From a virus, in the IMG/VR virus record IMGVR_UViG_3300045970_000191, positions 1 to 25,286 of that record: a DNA stretch of 25,286 nt. One strand, given 5' to 3'. This document shows, piece by piece, positions 2,411 to 24,294 of this stretch (positions are counted from its first letter, which is position 1; the number at the start of each line of letters is the position of its first letter). The notes below the pieces were generated by a model. That model was not told the origin of the DNA, made no database searches, and worked only from the letters and a program-made list of their open reading frames with translations. The position numbers and the translations under genes are program-made.

Positions 2411-4695
2411 CGTTTGGCACCCATAACGCTAATTGAACTATCGGAAACCCATGAATAACCCTCATTATTTGGTTCCGAAAACCAGAATTGCAGATAATAA
2501 TTGAATGTTCCCACACCCGGACTGTCCAACCAAGAAAAAGACATTGTGTTTCTATGGTATAAATCGCTAGACACCAATACCGGCGATGTCGCCCCGTCCC
2601 TTCTTAGCAAAACAAGCAGCATCCCTTGTGATGCGTTGGTCGCATAGCAGTTGCTCGTAACCGTTGCGGTAAACAAGAGTGGATAATTGTAATCAAGCGT
2701 TACGGTTATTGATGCGCCTGCAGTTTGCCATGCCTGGTTTGCTGTTATATACTGTAAACCTTGACCACACCGAGATGCAAACTGTGGGACTGTAACAGCA
2801 TTGCCAGCTATTTTAAGTGTTCCGATAGCAGCATCTTCAACAATCAACCCTTGCCCTCTTATCGTTCCTGCTTTATCAATCTTCCAGCCTGTTCCGCCAG
2901 CCCCAGGGGTATATATCGTGCTCTGGATCGTATCCCCGATAAAGGCATTAGTGATTTTACCAAGGTTGATTATCGCTTCCCATATCGTACCGATATCCGG
3001 AACCGTCAACTTGTCGGCAGTAAGATTTTCAATCTTGGCGCTGGTGATTGTTGCATCCTTAATCAGAGCAACATCCATCACCACGCCATAAACGGCATCG
3101 ACAATAAACGGGAATTTCGTCACCCCAAGGGCTGTGTTGACGATAGCGAATCTGTCGGTAATTATCTCAAAGGCGCTGGTTGCCCCGTCATTGGCCATGC
3201 CGAAACCGGAAATCTTGCCGTTTACATCCGTCTTGACTGTGTACTGCGCATACAGATCAGCGGCTACAACCTTCCAATATGTGCCGTTCTCCGGGATCGA
3301 TGTAGTTGCCTGACGGCATTGAAACAAGCTGCCATTATACTGAACTACCTTTCCAGGTTGATAGAGGGTGTTGGGTAGCCAGTTCGGGCCGATGGTCAGT
3401 GCCCGCACCTGCTGTTCGATCTGTAAAGCAGCGGTCAAACCACCGACAGAAGTTGCCGAGAGCGTGTTTATCGCTGTAGCAATCGCCCCGGTGGTATCCG
3501 CTTTGGTGTAATAGTTGGTCAGAATATTGGCGACGTTGATACCCGCAGCAGATACAGCCTGATTTACGGCTGATGTGGTAGCCGAGTTCATGTTGGCAAA
3601 GGTTGTATAATTCGTCAGCTGCGTCGCAACATTTGAACCGGCCTGGGCAATAGCGGCACTCTTTGCCTCAACTATTGCAGCACTCATCGTTGCCGTTGTT
3701 GAATATGAGTTCTGCAGCAATGCCCTGGTTGCGATAATACCGGTTGCCGGGTCGCTTACTGTTGATTCAAGACCATCCAGGCGGCCGGAATGAGCGACAA
3801 TATCACCCTCGGTTGCAGTTACCCGTGACGAAACCGTGGAATAATTTATCGAGAGTCCCGATACTGTTGTTGATAACGCCCCGACCGAAACGGTCAACGA
3901 AGCGTAATCGCCAATCAGCAGCCAGTATTCTGCATCTGTCGGCGCAGGTGCCGGTGTTTCGGTTATTTCCTTGATACACTTGTAGATCTTTCCCTGATAC
4001 ATCACAATCGCATCAAGCGCATAGGTTTCGGTATCCGAGAAGATGCTGGTGGTGAGTTCCCCTAGTTGTGCCAGTGCGGACGCCAGCACCTCTTCTGCCG
4101 AACCCATACGGGTCACCAGGCCGGGAACCAGATCAATTCTACTGTTTAATGTCGTGTGCAGTTCTGATGCTGTGATCTGGCCGGCCAACAGTTCCAGAAT
4201 ATACGCCGGATCGTTGGCGGTATGCGCCATCGTGCCCGCAGTGGCATTAAATGGCCCCTTGATTCCGGCCATACTGATAATCCGCACCCAATAATAATAG
4301 TCAATAGCCAGAGAAGCATTTGGTGGGATATCGGCATAGATGGTTGATTTGGTTGTGCCGATCAGTACCGCCGCCCCCAGATCATCTGCAGTGTGTCGCC
4401 ACACTTCGACATAAGACAGATGCAGATAATAAGGTTCATCCCAGGAGAGCATGATATTGCGGAAAGCGCCGGTTGCTTCAAGATTCTGTATTTGCGGGGG
4501 GATTGAGCCATCAAAAAAGGGATACAGTGTCGGATCTTTCGACCAGTCCACCGGAGATGGGAGGGATCTTTGTGTAACCATGCCACCGTCAGCGGCAATA
4601 GAGGTTAGCCAGCCCCTGATAGCATCAAGAGCCTGCCGCACTTCTTTATCAACTTTTGTGGAAAGCGCCTGTATGTTTGGCAGCGGGATCGGCAT
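2407..4695 (-). CDS. Host-specificity (J-like) tail fibre with carbohydrate-binding-like modules
   Basis: This 762-residue protein has a modular fibre layout. A fibronectin-III-like domain lies at about 90-165 (IQNLEATGAFRNIMLSWDEP onward), followed by coiled-coil stretches. Two short modules, near 225-265 (YALDAIVMYQGKIYKCIKEI) and 435-475 (YQPGKVVQYNGSLFQCRQAT), each end in an aromatic YW and resemble CBM5/12-type sugar-binding folds. The segment FAIVNTALGVTKFPFIVDA, then IKDATITSAKIENLTADKL, matches the C-terminal part of phage lambda J-like proteins, and the end is beta-rich. It presumably contacts the cell surface. ATG 4695 is chosen over a GTG two codons upstream because of an AGG seven bases before it. 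A fibre-assembly-like gene follows directly. Confidence 0.75.
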   Translation of the reverse strand: MPIPLPNIQALSTKVDKEVRQALDAIRGWLTSIAADGGMVTQRSLPSPVDWSKDPTLYPFFDGSIPPQIQNLEATGAFRNIMLSWDEPYYLHLSYVEVWRHTADDLGAAVLIGTTKSTIYADIPPNASLAIDYYYWVRIISMAGIKGPFNATAGTMAHTANDPAYILELLAGQITASELHTTLNSRIDLVPGLVTRMGSAEEVLASALAQLGELTTSIFSDTETYALDAIVMYQGKIYKCIKEITETPAPAPTDAEYWLLIGDYASLTVSVGALSTTVSGLSINYSTVSSRVTATEGDIVAHSGRLDGLESTVSDPATGIIATRALLQNSYSTTATMSAAIVEAKSAAIAQAGSNVATQLTNYTTFANMNSATTSAVNQAVSAAGINVANILTNYYTKADTTGAIATAINTLSATSVGGLTAALQIEQQVRALTIGPNWLPNTLYQPGKVVQYNGSLFQCRQATTSIPENGTYWKVVAADLYAQYTVKTDVNGKISGFGMANDGATSAFEIITDRFAIVNTALGVTKFPFIVDAVYGVVMDVALIKDATITSAKIENLTADKLTVPDIGTIWEAIINLGKITNAFIGDTIQSTIYTPGAGGTGWKIDKAGTIRGQGLIVEDAAIGTLKIAGNAVTVPQFASRCGQGLQYITANQAWQTAGASITVTLDYNYPLLFTATVTSNCYATNASQGMLLVLLRRDGATSPVLVSSDLYHRNTMSFSWLDSPGVGTFNYYLQFWFSEPNNEGYSWVSDSSISVMGAKR

Positions 4696-4697
4696 GG

Positions 4698-6281
4698 TCA
4701 CACCTGGGCGAGTTCAGCCATCGTTGACGCCAGTAGCACCGAGGTTACTTCATAATTACCTTCGACCTGCACCTCCCAATTTATTGCCAGAAAACCAGAG
4801 GGGAGGCGGAAAGGTGTTGAGCTTGTAGCATACTGCGAATGTTTTAATACGCCGTCAGCGTAGATCTTCACCATAACCGGACCCGATGCAAATATTTGTG
4901 CAACTCCAAGATTAGCTGGAGAAAGCGCCTGAAACTTCTTCGACTTCCACATCAGCATTTTATCCGGACCGGCCGCCCATTCCATTATCTGACCATAGAC
5001 AACCAGAAACAATTTGCCGTTTTCCCGGTCGTACCAGCCACCTGTGGCCGTAATATCATGTGTTGAGAAAGTCCCGGTTGCCACGTCGAAGATAAAGCCA
5101 CCGGATGTCATAAAGCCGATATAAAGAGATTCATACTGGAGGGCGAAAACAAGAGAAGCAGAGTAGGCCGCCCATTCTTTTTTTGTCATAAGAGCTGCCG
5201 TAGCCAGTTCAACCGTACCCGTGCCGGCCAACCACAATCCGGAGGGACCGGGATACATGCAGGCCCATCCCATATCAACAAACCCACGCTTCAGGATGCA
5301 CGCCTCGCCCTTCTCCAGTTTATCGATACTTAGCTGTCCGGGCGTCGAACCGGTCACCACATACGGCATCCCCTTGGTTGTAACCAGTATACTGTTGCCA
5401 TAAACACCAATAGCTATAATCTCGACATCAACAGTGATCTGATATCCAGCAGGATAGGCATGGGGTAGGTACGGAACCGAGGGGCAGAGCACATTCTTAT
5501 AAAACCCAACCAGAAACCCGCCAGGGTGAGCAACAATTCCGGTCATTGCCGCGTTTGGCGCAATCCATGTTGCAGATGGCAATACTTCGCCCAGAGCAGA
5601 ACTCGCAATGGTATCGCTGTATGCGGGTGTAGCCACAGCAACGGACGCAACAAACTGATATTCGGAAGCTGTTGACCCGGTGTTGACGCGGTAGATGTTC
5701 TTGGAGATGATATTATGCGACCCACCCGGGGCGGCGCTCATGTTCGAAATGGTTACCGTCGTACCTGGCTCCACACTGATTAATGCCGAGGGGCTTGATG
5801 GCGGACCTTCCTCGCCGTAAGCTGAGACATAGGTATAAACATAGGCCCGGCTTTCCGCCGTAACAGAGGTACTGACTGCGATAGTTCCGGATGCAGTGGG
5901 TATAGCTGCGGGTTTAGGTATCCCCAGATCATACGAACTGCCCGGTTTGGATGAACCACTTAAAATAATGTTCCTGTCACCCATCTTCGGTACACCATCT
6001 CCGGTCCAGTAGAGTCGATCATATACGTCCATGGCCACGGCGCTGCGACAGACGCTGATATCATTCAGCCAGGCCAGCCATTTATCGCCATAGCGGAAAA
6101 TGGTTTTTTTGTTTCCAGGGACGAGCGGTTCGCTGACAGCTACCGGGCCTACACCGGACAACGGACGCAGCGAGCCTGACCCAAACAGGCAGTTTGATGC
6201 AATCTGCGCGGCCTGTTGTGGTAGATCTACCGGAGCGATTCGCGGGGCCAGCCCGGAGAAGGTATCGAGTTTGATTAACAC
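4698..6281 (-). CDS. Tail nozzle / stabilisation-like protein
   Basis: This 527-residue protein begins LIKLDTFSGLAPRIAP, then describes repeated beta blades (YGDKWLAWL, YDRLYWTGDGVPKMG, YVYTYVSAYGEEGPPS). These are characteristic of the large beta-propeller tail proteins of short-tailed phages such as T7 gp12 and P22 gp10-type stabilisation proteins. The YxYTYVxxxGEEGPPS element is widespread in these proteins. It likely forms the distal tail tube that closes the portal-adaptor channel. It starts with GTG sharing one base with the upstream stop. Assignment rests on blade pattern and context. Confidence 0.65.
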   Translation of the reverse strand: MLIKLDTFSGLAPRIAPVDLPQQAAQIASNCLFGSGSLRPLSGVGPVAVSEPLVPGNKKTIFRYGDKWLAWLNDISVCRSAVAMDVYDRLYWTGDGVPKMGDRNIILSGSSKPGSSYDLGIPKPAAIPTASGTIAVSTSVTAESRAYVYTYVSAYGEEGPPSSPSALISVEPGTTVTISNMSAAPGGSHNIISKNIYRVNTGSTASEYQFVASVAVATPAYSDTIASSALGEVLPSATWIAPNAAMTGIVAHPGGFLVGFYKNVLCPSVPYLPHAYPAGYQITVDVEIIAIGVYGNSILVTTKGMPYVVTGSTPGQLSIDKLEKGEACILKRGFVDMGWACMYPGPSGLWLAGTGTVELATAALMTKKEWAAYSASLVFALQYESLYIGFMTSGGFIFDVATGTFSTHDITATGGWYDRENGKLFLVVYGQIMEWAAGPDKMLMWKSKKFQALSPANLGVAQIFASGPVMVKIYADGVLKHSQYATSSTPFRLPSGFLAINWEVQVEGNYEVTSVLLASTMAELAQV

Positions 6282-6613: not shown

Positions 6614-7675
6614 TTACGTATCCTCCATAATGATAGTCATGTCCGGATCTGTGCTGAAGGTCCATCTGATCGATGAGGGTAAAAACGGGCGGCTGACCAG
6701 GCGCAATAAAGTTGTGCCGACAGCACCACCGGAAGAGATAAAGTCAACGTACTGCACAACGGCGCTCTGACCGCCGCCGAGGGCGGAGATAATACTAACA
6801 GGGGAGTTGACCAGCACAGTCCAGGATCCCGAGCTGTTGGCTACACCGCCGCCGGTAACACCTACGGCACACAAGGCGGCAATACGCGATGACCCACCGG
6901 CAATAGCAAATATCTCGCTCTGACGGTTATTGCCGATTGAAAATAGGGTCGATGCCGCGCCTATCAATCCACCCGAAGGTGTAAAATATTGACAGGCAAC
7001 CTGGACACTTGTACCTCCACCGACACCAGGCAGCGTCTCCGTAATTGCAACGACCGCAACCTTTTCAACTAGCGTACCTCCAGCAACAGCAGGGCACAAT
7101 CCGTCAATAATATTCGATGCGGCTGCAGATGACGACCCACCGCCTAAAGCGCCTGCCAGTCCATTATAAAAGCGTTCGCCTATCGAGGCCAACAAGCCGC
7201 CGCCGATAGCCCCTACATTACCGGTTATGGGAGTGTGTGCCCAAGCCTTGGCTGTGCCACCAGCCAGCGCCTGTGATGTTTGCGTGAGATTGGTATGGAT
7301 CTGATATGGCGACGAGCCGCCGGATACCGCACCATCAGCCGAGTATGCCAGGTTCGAAACAACTACATCGGATTGCCCGCCCGCCAGAGATCCGCCAATA
7401 GAGGTGTGAAACTTCCGCCCCATATAATCGATAATGATTGACGATTCACCGCCGCAAACACCGCGAGCGCCAGAGATAATGAACTGGACTCGTGAGACGA
7501 TAGCCGAGCCGCCGCCGACAGCCCCGGCATGTGATGCCATCGGCGACAGGATTACAGCCGCCGCAGCAGACAGGGCAAGAATTGCGCCGCCAATACTCAT
7601 ATGCGATCTGACAACAACACCCTGACTACCGGATATGGTTTCGCCGATTGGTGTAGATGCAATACTCACGGCCAT
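6614..7675 (-). CDS. Repetitive Gly-Gly-rich probable fibre protein
   Basis: This 353-residue protein is built from roughly thirteen repeats of about 20 residues. Each carries a small-residue core such as GAVGGGS, LAGGQS, AVSGGS, ALAGGT, AIGGG, ALGGGS or GVGGGTS, followed by about 12 residues of alternating hydrophobic and polar character. Regular spacing of Gly-Gly turns suggests a beta-solenoid or other repetitive fibre. The last ~40 residues (from SSIRWTFSTDPDM) break the pattern and may cap it. An AGAGAGG ribosome site precedes the ATG. No enzyme motif is seen; a structural tail role is inferred. Confidence 0.6.
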   Translation of the reverse strand: MAVSIASTPIGETISGSQGVVVRSHMSIGGAILALSAAAAVILSPMASHAGAVGGGSAIVSRVQFIISGARGVCGGESSIIIDYMGRKFHTSIGGSLAGGQSDVVVSNLAYSADGAVSGGSSPYQIHTNLTQTSQALAGGTAKAWAHTPITGNVGAIGGGLLASIGERFYNGLAGALGGGSSSAAASNIIDGLCPAVAGGTLVEKVAVVAITETLPGVGGGTSVQVACQYFTPSGGLIGAASTLFSIGNNRQSEIFAIAGGSSRIAALCAVGVTGGGVANSSGSWTVLVNSPVSIISALGGGQSAVVQYVDFISSGGAVGTTLLRLVSRPFLPSSIRWTFSTDPDMTIIMEDT

Positions 7676-7709: not shown

Positions 7710-8195
7710 TCACAGCTTCGCAGCCTCACTAAAATATGTGTCCATCTCCGTATCACTCCAGCCAAGCAGTTGCTGCATCTGGGCAACTAAAGGAAATGTT
7801 CTATCAACGGATGTCCGGTATTCCCAATCCACCTGAGCTGATTCAGACATGGAACCAATAGCGGCATTTACCGCAGAGTACAGTCCGAGTGCGATTAACT
7901 GCTGTCTGGCTTGTGCCATTGAGACGGTTTTCACCTTCCGTGCGCTCATTTCATCTGCTCTCATCTGCTCGTAATCACCAAGGCTCAACTCACCGATCAC
8001 CCCATCAATAAAATGATCGCTCCCGTCCGGGCATGTGCCGAACAGATCAGGTACCGCCGTTGGATAGCGGGACTCCCTCGCCCACTCGAACTGCAAACCT
8101 GCTACAGCCGGGAAGATTGCGCCGTTTAATGCCGGTTCAGACGCCACCGATATACCGGTCTCAGCGTCAACGTGTGTAAAATGGATATACTTCAT
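7710..8195 (-). CDS. Conserved phage tail-associated protein
   Basis: This 161-residue protein has an N-terminal beta segment (YIHFTHVDAETGISV) and a C-terminal helical domain of the pattern ARQQLIALGLYSAVNAAI followed by VDWEYRTSVDRTFPLV. The same helical pattern (LxxxGLxxxVxxAI ... WEY ... FxRxxPLV) is found in many small proteins encoded beside phage fibres. No specific function is established to my knowledge. Its ATG overlaps the stop of the RT-tail ORF as ATGA, so its translation probably depends on that short ORF. A GGAG site also lies upstream. Confidence 0.55.
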   Translation of the reverse strand: MKYIHFTHVDAETGISVASEPALNGAIFPAVAGLQFEWARESRYPTAVPDLFGTCPDGSDHFIDGVIGELSLGDYEQMRADEMSARKVKTVSMAQARQQLIALGLYSAVNAAIGSMSESAQVDWEYRTSVDRTFPLVAQMQQLLGWSDTEMDTYFSEAAKL

Positions 8196-8344
8196 GGCCT
8201 TACTCCTTTGATTGAAATAACTTTGGTTAGACCTGTATCAACCCGGCAACCCATTGCCCGCAACCTCCCGGCAAAACGCTTTCGTTCGCACCAGGCGTTA
8301 GCATGACGCATCAAACCGAAATAACTGTTTGCGGTGGCTCGCAT
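8192..8344 (-). pseudogene. C-terminal stub of a DGR reverse transcriptase
   Basis: This 50-codon ORF starts with ATG overlapping the avd stop (TGATG) and ends in TGA overlapping the next gene (ATGA). Near its start it reads ANSYFGLMRHANAWCERKRF. That matches the conserved extreme C-terminal motif of DGR reverse transcriptases (NSY-G---H---- then an Arg/Lys-rich helix), and the position just after avd is where the RT gene sits in such cassettes. Family RTs are roughly 300-400 residues; all palm, finger and catalytic motifs are missing here. The simplest reading is a deletion that joined the 3' end of avd to the RT tail and removed the template repeat. The ORF may persist because it couples translation to the downstream gene. 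Confidence 0.75.
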
Positions 8345-8703
8345 CACTCTGCCGACAATGGTATTACAGTTTTCAGCCAGCCTTGGGCCTGACGAACCAC
8401 GCTGTCTGTTAATGCGACTGTTTCGGAGAACTGTTTGATGCTCATGAGGCGCATATCCTTACTTAACCTCACCAGCAACTCTACAACCTGCATGCGCTCT
8501 ACAATCAGCGCCACGTACTTTGCCCTTTCACCAATAAAAGTATTTGCCTTGTAGATGAACAACACCAGATCAACTACCTCTTCGCGCAACTTTGCACCCA
8601 GAGTATGCTTGAAATCACGGGGATAGCTTTTTACAACCTTCGTGACCTGCTGCAAAAGCTCGTATGTTGTCTTGTAAATCGGTAGATGCTGATATTGCGC
8701 CAC
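8344..8703 (-). CDS. avd: Avd, DGR accessory variability determinant
   Basis: This 119-residue all-helical protein matches the four-helix-bundle Avd family. Its N-terminus is YQHLPIYKTTYELLQQVTKV, followed by YPRDFKHTLGAKLREEVVDL. Further on come IYKANTF, then ERMQVVELLVRLSKDMRLMS and a C-terminal QAQGWLK. The segments LPIYK-YELL, PR-FK-TLG-KL-EE and LLVRL-KD-R-MS are the family's recognisable core. In Bordetella phage BPP-1, Avd forms a pentamer that binds RT and the template RNA and is needed for mutagenic homing. GTG at 8703 is chosen because a GGAGG site lies seven bases upstream. It follows the variable fibre gene, the canonical position. With the RT missing, Avd has no visible partner here. 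Confidence 0.88.
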   Translation of the reverse strand: MAQYQHLPIYKTTYELLQQVTKVVKSYPRDFKHTLGAKLREEVVDLVLFIYKANTFIGERAKYVALIVERMQVVELLVRLSKDMRLMSIKQFSETVALTDSVVRQAQGWLKTVIPLSAE

Positions 8704-8743
8704 GTCACAACCTCCAAACAAAAAGGATTAAAGGGTTAAAGGA

Positions 8744-10795
8744 TTAAATAATTGATCGCCTGACCGCTCGCACATAAAAAGCAGCGTACTTATTGCCGAG
8801 GTACTGGTAGCCGGGGACCCCTGAGTTCCAGCTCTGCCTCCACGCGTACGTCGCTGAGACCTCTGAGGACGACCAGTAGTAGTACGACGCGTAAGCAAAG
8901 GCTTCCGACTCCCCGGTTCGGAAGTTCTTGCCACTTGCCACTTGTCCCGGAACAGTCAGCATATAGGCATCGCCGTGAGGACTGCTGTTTTGGTTGTGGC
9001 CGTGAGCGACATCAACATCGTCGATTGATCCAAGCAGGGTGTAGTTGATTGCACTGTCCGACCTGTCCGCCGTCACATAGTTATTATCCGCTGTGGGTTT
9101 CAAGTTCCGCCAGCAAAGTTCCAGCTCGTCTCGAGCAGGCAGATACCAGTCTGTTTTACTGCCGATATTGAGATTGTTGCAGAAATGCGCTGCGGGGTAT
9201 GTGGTGGCATCACCAGCCGCAACCATCGCAAGAGTAGCCTTGCGTCCCTCGGTAAGCGTCTGGCACGCTGCCGGAGCCGCCGTGTTGTCAACTTTGTACG
9301 TCTTACTACTGCTCTCTCCGGTGGATTTAGGCGCAACGATAATCCGGTATTGGGCCATGATTGACCAATCCGTAAGTGTACCGCTGCCGCTAACACTTGA
9401 TACGTTGATTGTAAGAGTAGTACCGGAAGCGCCGGTGACAGTCCCGATCATCTTGTTGGCAGGATTTGCGCGACTGCGAACTTCCAGTGCTTGCCCAGAA
9501 TAGACAATAGGTGAAGAGGTCATATCCGTAACAGTGAAGGCTTTGCTTCCTGTGCCGATGGCAACAGATGAAGACGACTGGACAAGCTCGTTCCAGATCA
9601 TCCCGGTGTAAAATCCGCCTTCAAACGAATCACCCATAGCAGCAGGGGTTGACGTAGGGGTAGAGATGTAGCTATTGAAGGACGAGGCTGTGGCAAAAGA
9701 TATCCCTGTACTCCAGGATGACCAGCCGTTGCCCACGCCCTTATGCCGACAGCGCACATAATATGTTGTAGAGACGGAAAGCCCGGTAGCAGACCATGAT
9801 GTTTTGTTGGAGGTATCGTTGTAACTGGATTTCACAACAGTCGTGAAACCGGAATCGGTTGCCACTTCCCAATCGGTTTTTTCGTGGGTATCCGAAACAC
9901 CTGTCCACGAGAACGCGCTGGATGTAACGGCCACGGTATCCATCTGGTTTGTAGCGCCGCTTGAAGGGGCGGTGATTGTAGGAGTAGCAACACTGGCCGC
10001 AAGGATCGTCATGCTGATCGTCCGCGCAGTGCCGTTTGTGGTTAAGGTCATAGTGACGGTCTGAGCCGACGAAGGGGCGGTGAATGAGATTGAATCGCCA
10101 GTGATTGAGGCTGATCCGGCATTAACCGAAACGGAATAGGTACTAAACGCATCAAAATTGCTGACCGTGTAGGTCTTGGATTGCGATACGTAGATTGTGG
10201 TTTCGCCGGTTATGGTGGAGCCGGTACCTACATTCTGATCGCCGGTGTTAGAGCCGGAGAGTGTAGTAATGCCGAGTGTAGTTTTAATTGTTGAAACAGT
10301 CTCAGCCGGAGCTGCCGCAAGCGCTGCTACCGCAAAACCTGTTATGTCGGATACTACATGAGTGTGAGAGGTTGGTGTGCGGGCGTTAGTTAGCCTGGTG
10401 TCGTTGCCGGCAACCGCTTCAGAGCCGCTTGAGCCGATTCGTAGCAGACCTCCATGGGCTGTTACTGTTAATGCTCCATGGTCGCTGATATCCTGAATTG
10501 ATGCCCCCGTCAATGTCAGCATCACATCTTTTGATCCGGTGGCAAACGCTATCTTACTGGCGCTGTTGGATGCCTCCAGGGTTGTACGCTCTAGCGTGGA
10601 AGGGGCAGAAAACGTGCCGGTACCGGTTTCCCACTCCCCTGTGTTTGGATCGACAATACAATACCCACACGTATCACCACTCGTCAGCGCGGAATTAAAA
10701 GTCCGGTAGCCACTCTGAGCGCCACCCAGCGCTATATTTCCCGTGCCGGTTGTAGTGGTGAATTCCTTCACTCGGTCAACATATTTATAAGCCAT
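8744..10795 (-). CDS. Fibre with C-type-lectin-type DGR target domain
   Basis: This 683-residue protein begins MAYKYVDRVKEF, a virion-anchoring start common among phage fibres. It continues with a HGGLLRIG / LTNARTPTSHTHVVSDITGF linker, an Ig-like stretch, a fibronectin-III-like domain (about 270-375) and a C-terminal domain from about residue 388 (FEGGFYTGMIW). That domain carries the DUF1566/lectin-fold signature DWYLPARDELELCW near 547 and ends YYYWSSSE ... FYVRAVRR. In this family the final ~45 residues form the ligand-binding surface diversified by DGRs. The ATG at 10795 has a GGAG eight bases upstream. It is the likely receptor-binding protein and is followed directly by avd. Confidence 0.85.
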   Translation of the reverse strand: MAYKYVDRVKEFTTTTGTGNIALGGAQSGYRTFNSALTSGDTCGYCIVDPNTGEWETGTGTFSAPSTLERTTLEASNSASKIAFATGSKDVMLTLTGASIQDISDHGALTVTAHGGLLRIGSSGSEAVAGNDTRLTNARTPTSHTHVVSDITGFAVAALAAAPAETVSTIKTTLGITTLSGSNTGDQNVGTGSTITGETTIYVSQSKTYTVSNFDAFSTYSVSVNAGSASITGDSISFTAPSSAQTVTMTLTTNGTARTISMTILAASVATPTITAPSSGATNQMDTVAVTSSAFSWTGVSDTHEKTDWEVATDSGFTTVVKSSYNDTSNKTSWSATGLSVSTTYYVRCRHKGVGNGWSSWSTGISFATASSFNSYISTPTSTPAAMGDSFEGGFYTGMIWNELVQSSSSVAIGTGSKAFTVTDMTSSPIVYSGQALEVRSRANPANKMIGTVTGASGTTLTINVSSVSGSGTLTDWSIMAQYRIIVAPKSTGESSSKTYKVDNTAAPAACQTLTEGRKATLAMVAAGDATTYPAAHFCNNLNIGSKTDWYLPARDELELCWRNLKPTADNNYVTADRSDSAINYTLLGSIDDVDVAHGHNQNSSPHGDAYMLTVPGQVASGKNFRTGESEAFAYASYYYWSSSEVSATYAWRQSWNSGVPGYQYLGNKYAAFYVRAVRRSII
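8755..8890 (-). other. Probable DGR variable region (VR) in fibre 3' end
   Basis: The last ~45 codons of the fibre show the codon habit left by adenine-directed mutagenesis of AAC-rich templates. Of 40 codons ending at the CGA of YVRAV, 16 end in C with mixed first two bases (TAC, GTC, AGC, CCC, GGC, CTC, AAC). The flanking framework YYWSSSE and FYVRAVRR is as expected for lectin-type VRs. Boundaries are approximate because no template repeat is visible to align with it. Confidence 0.65.
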
Positions 10796-12074: not shown

Positions 12075-12689
12075 CTAATAACCTCCTTCGTAATTATTTA
12101 TTGTTTCTGCCAGAGTCTGTTCATTGATTAAAGCTATTCCGGATAGCAGCTGATCCAACAGGGTATTAATCAGAGGTACATAGCTCTTTGCTGTCAGATT
12201 TATATATCCACCAGACAGAACTGCCATTACGCCATCAATATATATTTGGTCTATGTTCCCGCCAAAAGGCAGATCGTCTGTCATGGCAACAGGAGTTTCA
12301 GGGCGCAGCGCCACCAGTAATTTAATTGATATGTCAGCATCAGCCGGGGGGTATACAATCAGATTGTTACCCACTATTCTGTAATATCTAGGCGTCCCCG
12401 GATCTTGTAACTGTGATGTGTCAATATCACCCACAACAGCCAGTTTCTCGCCTCTTCCGACTATCTGTGGCCGCTGAAAGAGTGTAATAAATCCGGTGGG
12501 GAGAGTGATAATATCATCGTTGGCATAAATATCAATTTGCACCTCTTCTAATAAAATATCACTACGCAGCTTCACCAGGCGATCAACTATGGCTACGTGT
12601 GTTAGTCTCACAGCATCAGCTATAGAACATGTCGGCTTTACTCCCCGGAGGTTTTGGAGAACAGTATTAAACAGATCACTAACCTTCAT
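12075..12689 (-). CDS. Connector-like structural protein
   Basis: This 204-residue protein resembles its downstream neighbour in layout. A helical N-terminus (MKVSDLFNTVLQNLRGVK, then IADAVRLTHVAIVDRLVKLR) leads to a beta segment with ITLPTGFITLFQRPQIV and YYRIVGNNLIVYPPADA. A helical C-terminal half follows (NIDQIYIDGVMAVLSGGYIN). The shared VYPP turn and helix-beta-helix order suggest both descend from one adaptor fold. It overlaps the MTase-GT9 gene by four bases. A head-completion or tail-adaptor role is inferred. Confidence 0.55.
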   Translation of the reverse strand: MKVSDLFNTVLQNLRGVKPTCSIADAVRLTHVAIVDRLVKLRSDILLEEVQIDIYANDDIITLPTGFITLFQRPQIVGRGEKLAVVGDIDTSQLQDPGTPRYYRIVGNNLIVYPPADADISIKLLVALRPETPVAMTDDLPFGGNIDQIYIDGVMAVLSGGYINLTAKSYVPLINTLLDQLLSGIALINEQTLAETINNYEGGY

Positions 12690-14188
12690 CTTCGCCTCCA
12701 GTTACGATAAACTTTCTCCACCGCTGCATAGATTACCTCAGGCCCGATGTTCTGCGCACAGAGCGCCGCGCCAGTTTCTTCAACCTGATTACAAAACTCC
12801 ATGCCGTAATGCAGCCGATGACAGGGGTAACACGCACAATTAACCGGGGCCAGCGCCTGAACATTCTTCCAGTGCTTTGACAGGTTGTTATCTGATGAAT
12901 GTGACAACAACAGAACCTTGTTAGGCGTATCATCAAAACCGACCGCGTTGAGCACGCCGGTTTCAGGTCCGACAACCAGATTGGCAGCCTGGGCCAGTGC
13001 GAGAGTTTCCCTGATCGACATCGTATCCGACAGACAGACTACCCGGTCCTCGTTTTCCCATCCCTGTTCAAGTAGCTTGCATGCGAAATCACCCACCAGC
13101 AGCACGCGAGCTTCAGGCATGTCCAACAAGATCCGGGCAATCACCGCATCCTGGTGCGGGGTAAATTTGTGTGGCGAGGATCCGGACAGTGCCCAGACAA
13201 CCGTAAACACCGCATCGTCGCACTTTGCCTTTCCCTCTTCCTCAGTGGAGGCATAAAACAGTTTGCATGGTTTAAAGGGCACTCCAGCAAGTTCCGCCGT
13301 CCACTCGTGATAGTTGGTGTTGAGGCGTTTCTTTCTGACTTCATGCGGCCAGGAATGATTTACCCGACCGGGTAGCGCCAGCAGCTGCCCTTCTATGGAT
13401 TCAGAAAGGTTGATAAACTTGTCAAAGCGAGTGGACTGTACCTGCCAGAAGGCAGTTAGTTCATTATTGGGTATCTGATCCTGATCCAGAAGGTACCAAT
13501 CATCCACATAAGGATCGTGCTTGATGATGTCCTTGCCTTTGGGCGTGGTCATAACGGTAACGTGATAACCCTGCTCCTTTAGTCGCGGGAACAGCAGCGC
13601 CGTCTGTATCATGTCGCCAAAGCCGCCGAAGCGGCAAACACAAGCGGTTTTCTGCGGTTTTACCGCTGGCGGGCCATACGCCTTACGGGCCACGGCAAAT
13701 ATACTGTATTCATTCCCAGCACCGCGCTCTTCAAACTCTTCAATGACCCAGTGTTGCGCAGAATTTTCCAATAGCGCCTGGAGATCATTGGGGTAGATAT
13801 CGTGCTTATGATCCGGATTGGCACCCTCTTCGCCGCATAACGGATATAAGTTCGCTGATGGCACGTACAGGCAGAGATAACCACCAAGTTTAATAACCCG
13901 GCCCCACTCGTCCACCGCTGCCTGCATGTCCGGCATATGTTCCAGAACATGTGACGAAAAAACCGCATCGAATGAATTGCTGGCGAAAAGCTCCAGATTG
14001 TTAGCCTCTCCGATAACGTCAGCGGCCCCCCGGCCAAAGTGGTGGCCCGAATCGTAGCCGATGAAGTGCGGAAAAGCCTTCTCCATGCCACAACCGATTT
14101 CCAGCACCCGGCCACGGGTGTACTTCGGCAGCAGATATTTAATCTTGCGGGATTCAAACCCTTGCGGGCCGTCGAGAGACCATGCCAT
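12686..14188 (-). CDS. Methyltransferase-GT9 glycosyltransferase fusion
   Basis: This 500-residue protein joins two enzymes. Residues ~1-170 form a class I SAM-dependent methyltransferase: motif I VLEIGCG at 28-34, FIGYDSG as the acidic strand, and FDAVFSSHVLEHMPD around 75-90. Residues ~180-500 resemble GT9 glycosyltransferases (ADP-heptose:LPS heptosyltransferase-like). FGGFGDMIQTALLFPRLK forms the N-terminal Rossmann start, ARVLLVGDF lies mid-domain, and VVGPETGVLNAVGF matches the conserved PDTG/PETG donor-site motif of the family. Its start shares a base with the upstream stop and its end overlaps the connector gene, so it is an integral part of the late operon. It may glycosylate and methylate a virion protein or alter host surface sugar; the substrate is unknown. 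Confidence 0.82.
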   Translation of the reverse strand: MAWSLDGPQGFESRKIKYLLPKYTRGRVLEIGCGMEKAFPHFIGYDSGHHFGRGAADVIGEANNLELFASNSFDAVFSSHVLEHMPDMQAAVDEWGRVIKLGGYLCLYVPSANLYPLCGEEGANPDHKHDIYPNDLQALLENSAQHWVIEEFEERGAGNEYSIFAVARKAYGPPAVKPQKTACVCRFGGFGDMIQTALLFPRLKEQGYHVTVMTTPKGKDIIKHDPYVDDWYLLDQDQIPNNELTAFWQVQSTRFDKFINLSESIEGQLLALPGRVNHSWPHEVRKKRLNTNYHEWTAELAGVPFKPCKLFYASTEEEGKAKCDDAVFTVVWALSGSSPHKFTPHQDAVIARILLDMPEARVLLVGDFACKLLEQGWENEDRVVCLSDTMSIRETLALAQAANLVVGPETGVLNAVGFDDTPNKVLLLSHSSDNNLSKHWKNVQALAPVNCACYPCHRLHYGMEFCNQVEETGAALCAQNIGPEVIYAAVEKVYRNWRRR

Positions 14189-21391: not shown

Positions 21392-21989
21392 TGTCAGGGA
21401 TATAGATCTTCACAATGCTTTCCGTTTCGATCCTCCCACCATCCTTACCTGTTAATTCCATCAGCAGCTTATCCATTCCCATCATCTTTTGCAGGGCATC
21501 TGCGGACTTTTCGGGTGAAGGAAAGACCGGAACATAAACAACACAACCATCGACAACCCGCGATTCAAGGCCAACACCAATGCGATGTTCGTCCGCCACC
21601 TGGCTGATATGGATTTTTGCCTGGGAGGTCTTATCAAAATAATTGGCGGGATCGAACTTCAAGCCCTTGATACGAAAATCTATCAGGTCGTTGATAGTGC
21701 GATTACGAATGACAGCTGACAATTCGTTGATACGTCTTCTTATGTCTCCATTTTTCAATAACTTATGAGCGTTCTTGCGGGCCTGTTCGTCACTACAGGC
21801 AGGATCCACAACCACTTGCCACGCCTTGCCGGCATGACCGCCATTCTCCACATAAGCCACACAAAACCTTTCATCACGAGGCTTAGGCAGCACGGCAGTC
21901 TCATAGCCGATGATCGTGCTGAAGTTATGGAGGACCAGCTGGCCGGTCAGTTCCGTGTTTTCATAATTTGCAGTGGTAGTCGTTCCCAT
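21378..21989 (-). CDS. Terminase small subunit
   Basis: This 203-residue protein has an N-terminal helix-turn-helix-type region with ERFCVAYVENGGHAGKAWQV and SDEQARKNAHKLLKNGDIRR, the pattern of Terminase_2-type small subunits (F-x-x-Y-x-x-x-G-x-A). The central oligomerisation helices and a C-terminal beta-hairpin follow. It should recognise the phage packaging site and regulate TerL. It opens the packaging operon after the terminator and conserved regulatory blocks; no strong Shine-Dalgarno is visible, so initiation may rely on the AT-rich leader. Confidence 0.85.
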   Translation of the reverse strand: MGTTTTANYENTELTGQLVLHNFSTIIGYETAVLPKPRDERFCVAYVENGGHAGKAWQVVVDPACSDEQARKNAHKLLKNGDIRRRINELSAVIRNRTINDLIDFRIKGLKFDPANYFDKTSQAKIHISQVADEHRIGVGLESRVVDGCVVYVPVFPSPEKSADALQKMMGMDKLLMELTGKDGGRIETESIVKIYIPDNGRD

Positions 21990-21997
21990 ATTTCACG

Positions 21998-22025
21998 GCT
22001 ACCGCAACATAAATAAAATATCAAC
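21998..22025 (-). promoter_or_regulatory. Conserved 28-bp block, copy 2 (probable late promoter or leader)
   Basis: It differs from 2017-2044 at one base and has the same orientation, ending 8 bases before the terminase start. On the minus strand it reads GTTGATATTTTATTTATG then TTGCGGTAGC. It follows an intrinsic terminator, so transcription of the packaging and structural genes must begin near here. This is the best candidate for the main late promoter of the window. Confidence 0.55.
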
Positions 22026-23511: not shown

Positions 23512-24294
23512 CTAAATTGATAGTGACCGGCCAACAACTTCCTTGATGCTATCCTTCCACCGGATCACCGGATCCTGCTCATAATGCCGGTACAGCTTCA
23601 TAATCAATTCATCGCCCTGCATGGTTTCAATCCGGCCAACAGCCTCGAAATGTTCAGGCGCAACCCTTAACCGTACCTTATTCATCTTTCCTATCCATAT
23701 GGTATCCGTCACATGCTCCCGTACAGCCTCAACCACTGCGATTGTACCGCTATAGCCTTCCAACATCGGTTCAATTGAAACCGATGTCCGGTATCCATTG
23801 TCTTGTGCTAACGCCAGGCACATGATCCGCTCAAGTGGATATGGAGCACAGGGCTCCCAAAATACTGAAACGTGATTACTTATTGTCCCGATGGTAAATC
23901 GGAATAGTATCTGTTTCCGCCACTGTTTCAACTCGGCAATAACAGGCTCTATGCAGTCGAGGCGAGGCTTGCTTACAATCAGCAACTGGTTGCCTTTATC
24001 AAGTATCAGCTTGGCAACTCTGATATATTCCTTGACGTTGAAAGGTGTTATATCGTGAGTTGTTGGAAACATGACTACGCCTTTTTTTTCCGGGTAAGAC
24101 TTTATGGTAGCGCGTTTTGATAGCCGCTCGTCTGACCAATCCTCACGCCTGATCCAGCCACCATATCTGGACGCGGCCTGTTCTGCCGCATAGCAGTAGA
24201 GGCAATCATTTGCGCAGCCAATCTGAATATTCACGCTATACTCGGCCCATTCGGCTACACCGGAGCCCGGCCTGTCCGCATCAAAAGTTTTCAA
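23512..24294 (-). CDS. Radical SAM protein (SPL-like)
   Basis: This 260-residue protein has the cluster motif C27-x3-C31-x2-C34 (GCANDCLYCYA) close to the N-terminus. VVMFPTTHDITPFNVKE, LLIVSKPRLDCIEPVI and RFTIGTISNHVSVFWEP follow, and SVSIEPMLEG lies near 170-180. These are typical barrel strands of SPL-like (spore-photoproduct-lyase-like) radical SAM proteins, which are also found in phages. It would cleave S-adenosylmethionine to start a radical reaction on an unknown substrate, perhaps a nucleic acid. It lies 24 bases upstream of the replisome organiser. Confidence 0.85.
   Translation of the reverse strand: MKTFDADRPGSGVAEWAEYSVNIQIGCANDCLYCYAAEQAASRYGGWIRREDWSDERLSKRATIKSYPEKKGVVMFPTTHDITPFNVKEYIRVAKLILDKGNQLLIVSKPRLDCIEPVIAELKQWRKQILFRFTIGTISNHVSVFWEPCAPYPLERIMCLALAQDNGYRTSVSIEPMLEGYSGTIAVVEAVREHVTDTIWIGKMNKVRLRVAPEHFEAVGRIETMQGDELIMKLYRHYEQDPVIRWKDSIKEVVGRSLSI

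Follow-up and report, generated by a model that had tools for sequence, protein, structure and literature searches.

A Probable Degraded Diversity-Generating Retroelement in a Tailed-Phage Locus, and Deletion Footprints in Its Relatives

Introduction

Diversity-generating retroelements (DGRs) are usually described in complete form, and a phage locus in which the target gene and the accessory gene avd are followed by only the end of a reverse transcriptase (RT) gene raises the question of whether diversification was switched off there by deletion or now depends on components supplied in trans. With Bordetella phage BPP-1, whose DGR needs a GC-rich hairpin, a laboratory deletion (deltaATR) spanning avd position 48 to brt position 882 was inactive in cis and restored by avd, template repeat (TR) and brt in trans (PMC3240598). 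Treponema denticola strains without RT and TR keep leftover DGR targets with an adenine-signature variable region (VR), and repeated loss was inferred (PMC4891356); remnant DGR targets lacking an RT are found in cyanobacteria (PMC7517822), and truncated or inactivated DGR RT genes were recorded in a survey (PMC3521204).

The locus in question lies in an IMG/VR virus record analysed at its whole length of 25,286 bases (hereafter, the window), which is part of a tailed-phage genome and encodes terminase, portal, major head and internal virion proteins. The original prediction, made from the sequence alone, took its lectin-type fibre, avd and RT tail to be in canonical DGR order, with the TR and all but about 50 C-terminal codons of the RT lost.

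Results

The genes concerned run on the minus strand in the order fibre, avd, 50-codon open reading frame (ORF) and the gene at 7710-8195 (Table 1). The C-terminal domain of the fibre matches Lcl_C/DUF1566 (E=5e-7, slightly below the curated cut-off), the fibre also matches phrog_4245 (E=3e-21), and it is syntenic with, and 58-66% identical to, the fibres of related loci L001-L004. The VR lies at the 3' end of this lectin-fold target gene, its extent being refined from the 8755-8890 given earlier. The accessory protein Avd is present, with matches to PF22296 (bAvd, E=3.5e-12, exceeding the curated cut-off) and to the PHROG 'Avd protein of DGR' (phrog_3206, E=1.7e-25); between the window avd and those of intact relatives, which are 80-84% identical, dN is ~0.12 and dS >1.3.

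Table 1. Positions of the cassette-derived features and their neighbours in the window
Feature	Position	Strand	Basis or remark
Tail fibre / receptor-binding protein, DGR target gene	8744-10795	minus	C-terminal Lcl_C (C-type-lectin-like) domain; synteny
Variable region (VR)	8756-8894	minus	Extent by alignment to the 139-nt TR of L001
IMH-like homing-site flank GTCAGGCGATCAATTATTTAATCCTTTAACCCTTTAATCC	8722-8766	minus	Common to intact relatives
avd, complete, GTG start	8344-8703	minus	PF22296 and PHROG Avd matches
Deletion junction	8333-8343	minus	Near 8338, +/- ~5 nt
50-codon ORF, RT C-terminal remnant	8192-8344	minus	Alignment and profile to relatives' RTs
Gene 3' of the RT in intact relatives, far-side marker of the deletion	7710-8195	minus	Family without named function

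The 50-codon ORF aligned to the 364-residue RT of L001 with 67% identity over residues 314-358 (E=6e-12), was matched by a profile of 12 relatives' RTs (E=5.8e-13), and shares 35-70% identity with the RT ends of relatives; its motif NSYFGLMRHANAW is the same in L001 and nearly the same in L002 and L003. The claim that only some 50 C-terminal RT codons are left was thus borne out, and the outcome that would have told against it, an ORF unrelated to DGR RTs, did not come true. A DGR-clade RT with catalytic motifs is lacking, residues ~311-358 of ~360 being what is left. The ORF alone had no match in Pfam or PHROGs because it is too short, and an RVT_1 search of the 25-kb record was empty because the remnant falls outside the RVT_1 domain. 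The ORF shares bases with both neighbours: its ATG with the stop of avd (TGATG), and its stop with the start codon of the following gene (ATGA), as at the RT end in intact L001. TGATG follows avd in intact L001 and L003 too; the start codon of the ORF is therefore an inherited spacer and not a designed gene start, and the overlap was ruled out as a sign of a designed small gene. A single-sequence scan with the downstream gene gave no matches, and an alignment-based scan recovered the relatives' loci.

Elsewhere in the window, a 353-residue protein (6614-7675), whose gene has that at 7710-8195 on one side and a virion-protein gene on the other, contains irregular repeats around glycine triplets (xGGGSx) and has no Pfam match. 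An AT-rich 38-nt repeat (89% identical) at 2007-2044 and 21988-22025 immediately precedes two genes of the minus strand that are separated by 20 kb, and may be a promoter or operator of the phage. Inspection by eye alone suggested phage-borne genes of metabolic type, resembling fused methyltransferase-glycosyltransferase, radical-SAM and acetyltransferase proteins, at 12686-14188, 506-1531, 1525-1992 and 23512-24294.

Relatives were gathered by Avd scans, giving 53 loci from viral contigs and 29 from one-per-species genomes. In the nearest intact loci (L001-L003), whose Avd is 80-84% identical to that of the window, the cassette reads fibre, avd, TR and RT, followed by the same downstream gene as in the window; the predicted order is thus the same as theirs. 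Mismatches between VR and TR in L001, L002 and L003 number 16, 15 and 16, respectively, at template adenines and zero at other positions, and such confinement is the signature of an active DGR. Against these loci, the window lacks ~1.24-1.25 kb, the gap opening ~9 nt beyond the final codon of avd and closing at RT residue ~311, and the missing segment comprises the TR and RT residues 1 to ~311. Homologous parts in cassette order with the core deleted make this arrangement that of a degenerate DGR. DNA identity to the nearest intact relatives is only 66-72%, so the deletion can be dated and its ends placed only approximately. The comparison placed those ends as had been proposed, with one correction: the predicted deletion stands, and its junction falls near 8338, just past the avd stop, instead of exactly at 8344. 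At the junction, no repeat longer than a few bases was found, and an exact-pattern search of viral_contigs with the junction sequence returned no second record. A DNA search of isolate phages gave no match, and their Avd proteins are at most 47% identical to that of the window; hence there is no close isolate phage.

Several intact relatives have the TR inside an open frame that runs on into the RT (L001, 6207-7754; L002, 2822-4354; L003, 1773-3281; L007, 6300-7709) and begins at an ATG that overlaps or is near the avd stop; judging from these frames, translation of the template might add an N-terminal extension to the RT. The continuous frame is not conserved in L004-L006 and L009.

No other RT was found in the 25-kb record with the 12-sequence RT profile, the record being a fragment and the relatives 36-44 kb. 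The best adenine-tolerant match to the VR within the record scored 12-13, which falls among the scores of 10 shuffles (11.4-15.1), compared to 70-118 for true VR/TR pairs in relatives, and an exact TR-like pattern was not found in viral_contigs. A template repeat differing from the VR at adenines is accordingly missing from the record, and the prediction that neither a template nor a DGR RT would be visible held over these 25 kb. A distant TR or RT outside the fragment is possible.

When the window VR was compared to the TRs of relatives, 18-21 of 39-43 adenine positions differed against 19-20 of 96-97 others (p=0.001-0.003); in one such comparison the values were 18/39 and 19/97 (p=0.002). 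The VRs of intact relatives show similar adenine enrichment against one another's TRs. Read in this way from relatives' TRs, its own being absent, adenine-specific diversification of the window VR is suggested but cannot be proved. The IMH-like flank GTCAGGCGATCAATTATTTAATCC is kept in the window. A GC-rich hairpin downstream of the VR is absent from the window and likewise from intact L001 and L002, and is present in L004, L009 and L055. Within the window's fibre group, the sequence GGCGATC at the VR end is retained by 15/15 loci where an avd start is present and by 1/6 where it is absent (p=0.0003), a statistic that is drawn from related sequences and is indicative only. In cassette-free loci, homing-site codons are mostly changed and the amino acids kept; in one whose cassette is wholly gone (L095), the adenine pattern of the VR persists (18/43 vs 10/96, p=4.5e-5). 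Most loci that retain an avd start (e.g., L001-L010, L070 and window 8722-8755) also have a pyrimidine-rich repeat, TTTAAYCCTTTAAYCCTTT, 3' of the VR; loci without a cassette lack it, and it might belong to the homing site as an additional element.

At least 13 distinct deletion footprints, including that of the window, were found in related phage and prophage loci. Because the scans can detect a locus only through its downstream gene or the initial ~18 residues of Avd, the counts give no loss rate. The 12 footprints besides the window are L010, L011, L040, L043, L046, L048, L049, L050/L051, L052, L070, L077 and L096. An avd of ~66 aa is in frame with the RT tail in L010, and in-frame joins follow an avd of 57 aa in a Methylobacillus MAG (L070) and of ~95 aa in an Acidobacteriaceae MAG (L077). 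L046, which shares its footprint and an avd of 24 aa with L047, has an in-frame fusion of avd to the RT tail, as does L048, where two or more deletions occurred. L049 has its avd start joined to RT residue 69 onward, L011 retains 18 aa of avd and no RT, and L096 retains 9 aa of avd; L043, L044 and L045 share one footprint, and L040, L050/L051 and L052 have separate ones. A further loss beyond the 13 is seen in L027, where the RT was cut from the opposite end. Nearly all deletion 3' ends fall within the last ~60 RT codons, adjoining the ribosome-binding site of the next gene, which probably limits them. An RT-tail scan for remnants without avd returned 14 intact cassettes and the L010 contig, with no new deletion type. 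By a scan with the downstream gene, and thus independently of the DGR, that gene was found to follow the fibre directly in L086, L088, L089, L091, L093, L095 and L098.

When the RT was mapped as present or absent onto a tree built from the fibre core without the VR, a minimum of six changes was required, and well-supported branches forced three of these; the five partial cassettes lie dispersed over the tree. Parsimony alone gives no proof of direction, but loss is the simplest reading of a partial cassette. Searched over their full records, which reach 61 kb, the deleted loci contain no other full RT; the L070 MAG alone has a second DGR RT, on another contig. Pairs with a common deletion (L043/L045 and L046/L047), compared for variation arising after the loss, are essentially identical. 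The VRs of L011 and L098 differ, and because the L098 homing site is changed too with its protein the same, recombination explains the VR difference as well as mutation does. Upstream of the deleted cassette of L052 (~3978-5981), three BLAST hits to the fibre core mark several tandem fibre-like lectin regions, suggesting putatively duplicated VR domains. On contig C183 of a Methylobacillus MAG (L100) there is a DGR that is chromosomal and has a target of the FGE type; a template-like, asparagine-rich stretch overlaps its RT ORF at the 3' end, in a different frame.

Discussion

Taken with its relatives, the window locus is very probably a degraded DGR from which a ~1.25 kb deletion removed the TR and most of the RT, the VR now being fixed; most likely, the deletion was recent, inactivated the element in cis and froze the VR. 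The ancestor would have had the fibre with its VR, avd, TR and RT ahead of the 7710-8195 gene, and its TR RNA would have been copied with adenine-specific errors into the VR, rewriting the fibre tip. Loss of the TR and of the RT up to residue ~311 would have fused the end of avd to the RT tail and ended the supply of mutagenic cDNA in cis, so that the fibre tip would be fixed as the last variant generated before the loss, the flanking genes and coupled translation starts staying usable. The intact avd and homing-site sequence point to a recent loss, the fibre presumably still works, and the VR would now be frozen.

The original prediction had also allowed that the VR is still diversified in trans, with a co-infecting relative, a prophage or a host DGR providing TR RNA and RT. 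The retained avd and homing-site flank make such rescue possible as well as making the loss look recent, cassette-bearing relatives with a similar TR 3' end exist, and the BPP-1 deletion, which covers nearly the same stretch and was complemented by avd, TR and brt in trans (PMC3240598), offers an analogy by which rescue might work here. Nevertheless, trans supply is unlikely: a matching TR is absent from viral_contigs by exact pattern, and cassette-free loci have mostly lost GGCGATC, so the target is seemingly not kept for use in trans. The L070 MAG, with a similar deletion, has another DGR RT, but the templates near it do not match the L070 VR, and this chromosomal DGR was ruled out as a template source. 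The BPP-1-type hairpin is missing from the window, though also from intact L001 and L002. Of the two branches, switching off by deletion is the better supported.

An assembler might instead have joined avd to the RT tail of a phage that has the whole cassette, and the same junction does occur in no second viral_contigs record; this is very unlikely, however, as the junction lacks a repeat longer than a few bases, the join preserves the ORF chain into the next gene, and comparable but independent deletions, with ends of their own, were seen in at least 12 further footprints from other metagenomes and MAGs, L070 and L077 being the two from MAG assemblies. It is just as hard to credit that the 50-codon ORF, or avd with the ORF, is a retained functional small protein, such as an Avd-RT-thumb module in a new role. 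Purifying selection on avd across the group and the in-frame fusions of L010, L070, L046, L048 and L077 are in keeping with that idea, but in-frame joins (6/12) are not above chance (p=0.18), leaving no significant bias toward fusion; many remnants are merely a few codons, and the remnant covers the ribosome-binding site of the next gene, sufficient reason for its retention.

Like BPP-1 (mtd-avd-TR-brt), the window lineage has the order target, avd, TR and RT, an Avd of the same family, a C-terminal VR in a lectin-like receptor-binding protein and the adenine signature, here in relatives. Unlike BPP-1, the window has lost the TR and RT residues 1-311, its target carries an Lcl_C domain, and the downstream GC hairpin is absent from it and its nearest intact relatives. 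It resembles deltaATR in that the TR and most of the RT are gone and the VR, avd start and RT end remain; the window deletion, however, is natural, leaves avd complete, and recurs in related loci with many different ends. The T. denticola leftovers are on a bacterial chromosome and mostly whole losses, whereas here phage loci hold intermediate deletion products with both ends visible. The surveys reported point mutations or transposons in single genomes (PMC3521204; PMC7517822); here, phages show a whole set of internal deletions at a single orthologous locus. No mention of remnant or deleted cassettes was found by keyword in the main text of the global DGR survey (PMC8144416), and recurrent internal deletions at an orthologous phage DGR were not described in the open-access papers searched. 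Bacteria are known to lose DGRs; what is new is the series of deletions in phages.

A dozen natural deletions, together with intact, half-deleted and empty versions of the locus, offer a direct means of asking under what circumstances targeted hypermutation pays its way and at what speed it disappears. The homing-site sequence, kept after partial loss and mostly altered in cassette-free loci, serves as a rough clock, and the fibres that survive provide a naturally occurring collection of variants fixed once diversification ended. Phages without TR and RT but with Avd and a homing site might, improbable as we judge it, be 'satellite' targets whose fibre is diversified only during co-infection by a cassette-bearing relative; if so, hypermutation would be a shared, inducible trait of a phage community.
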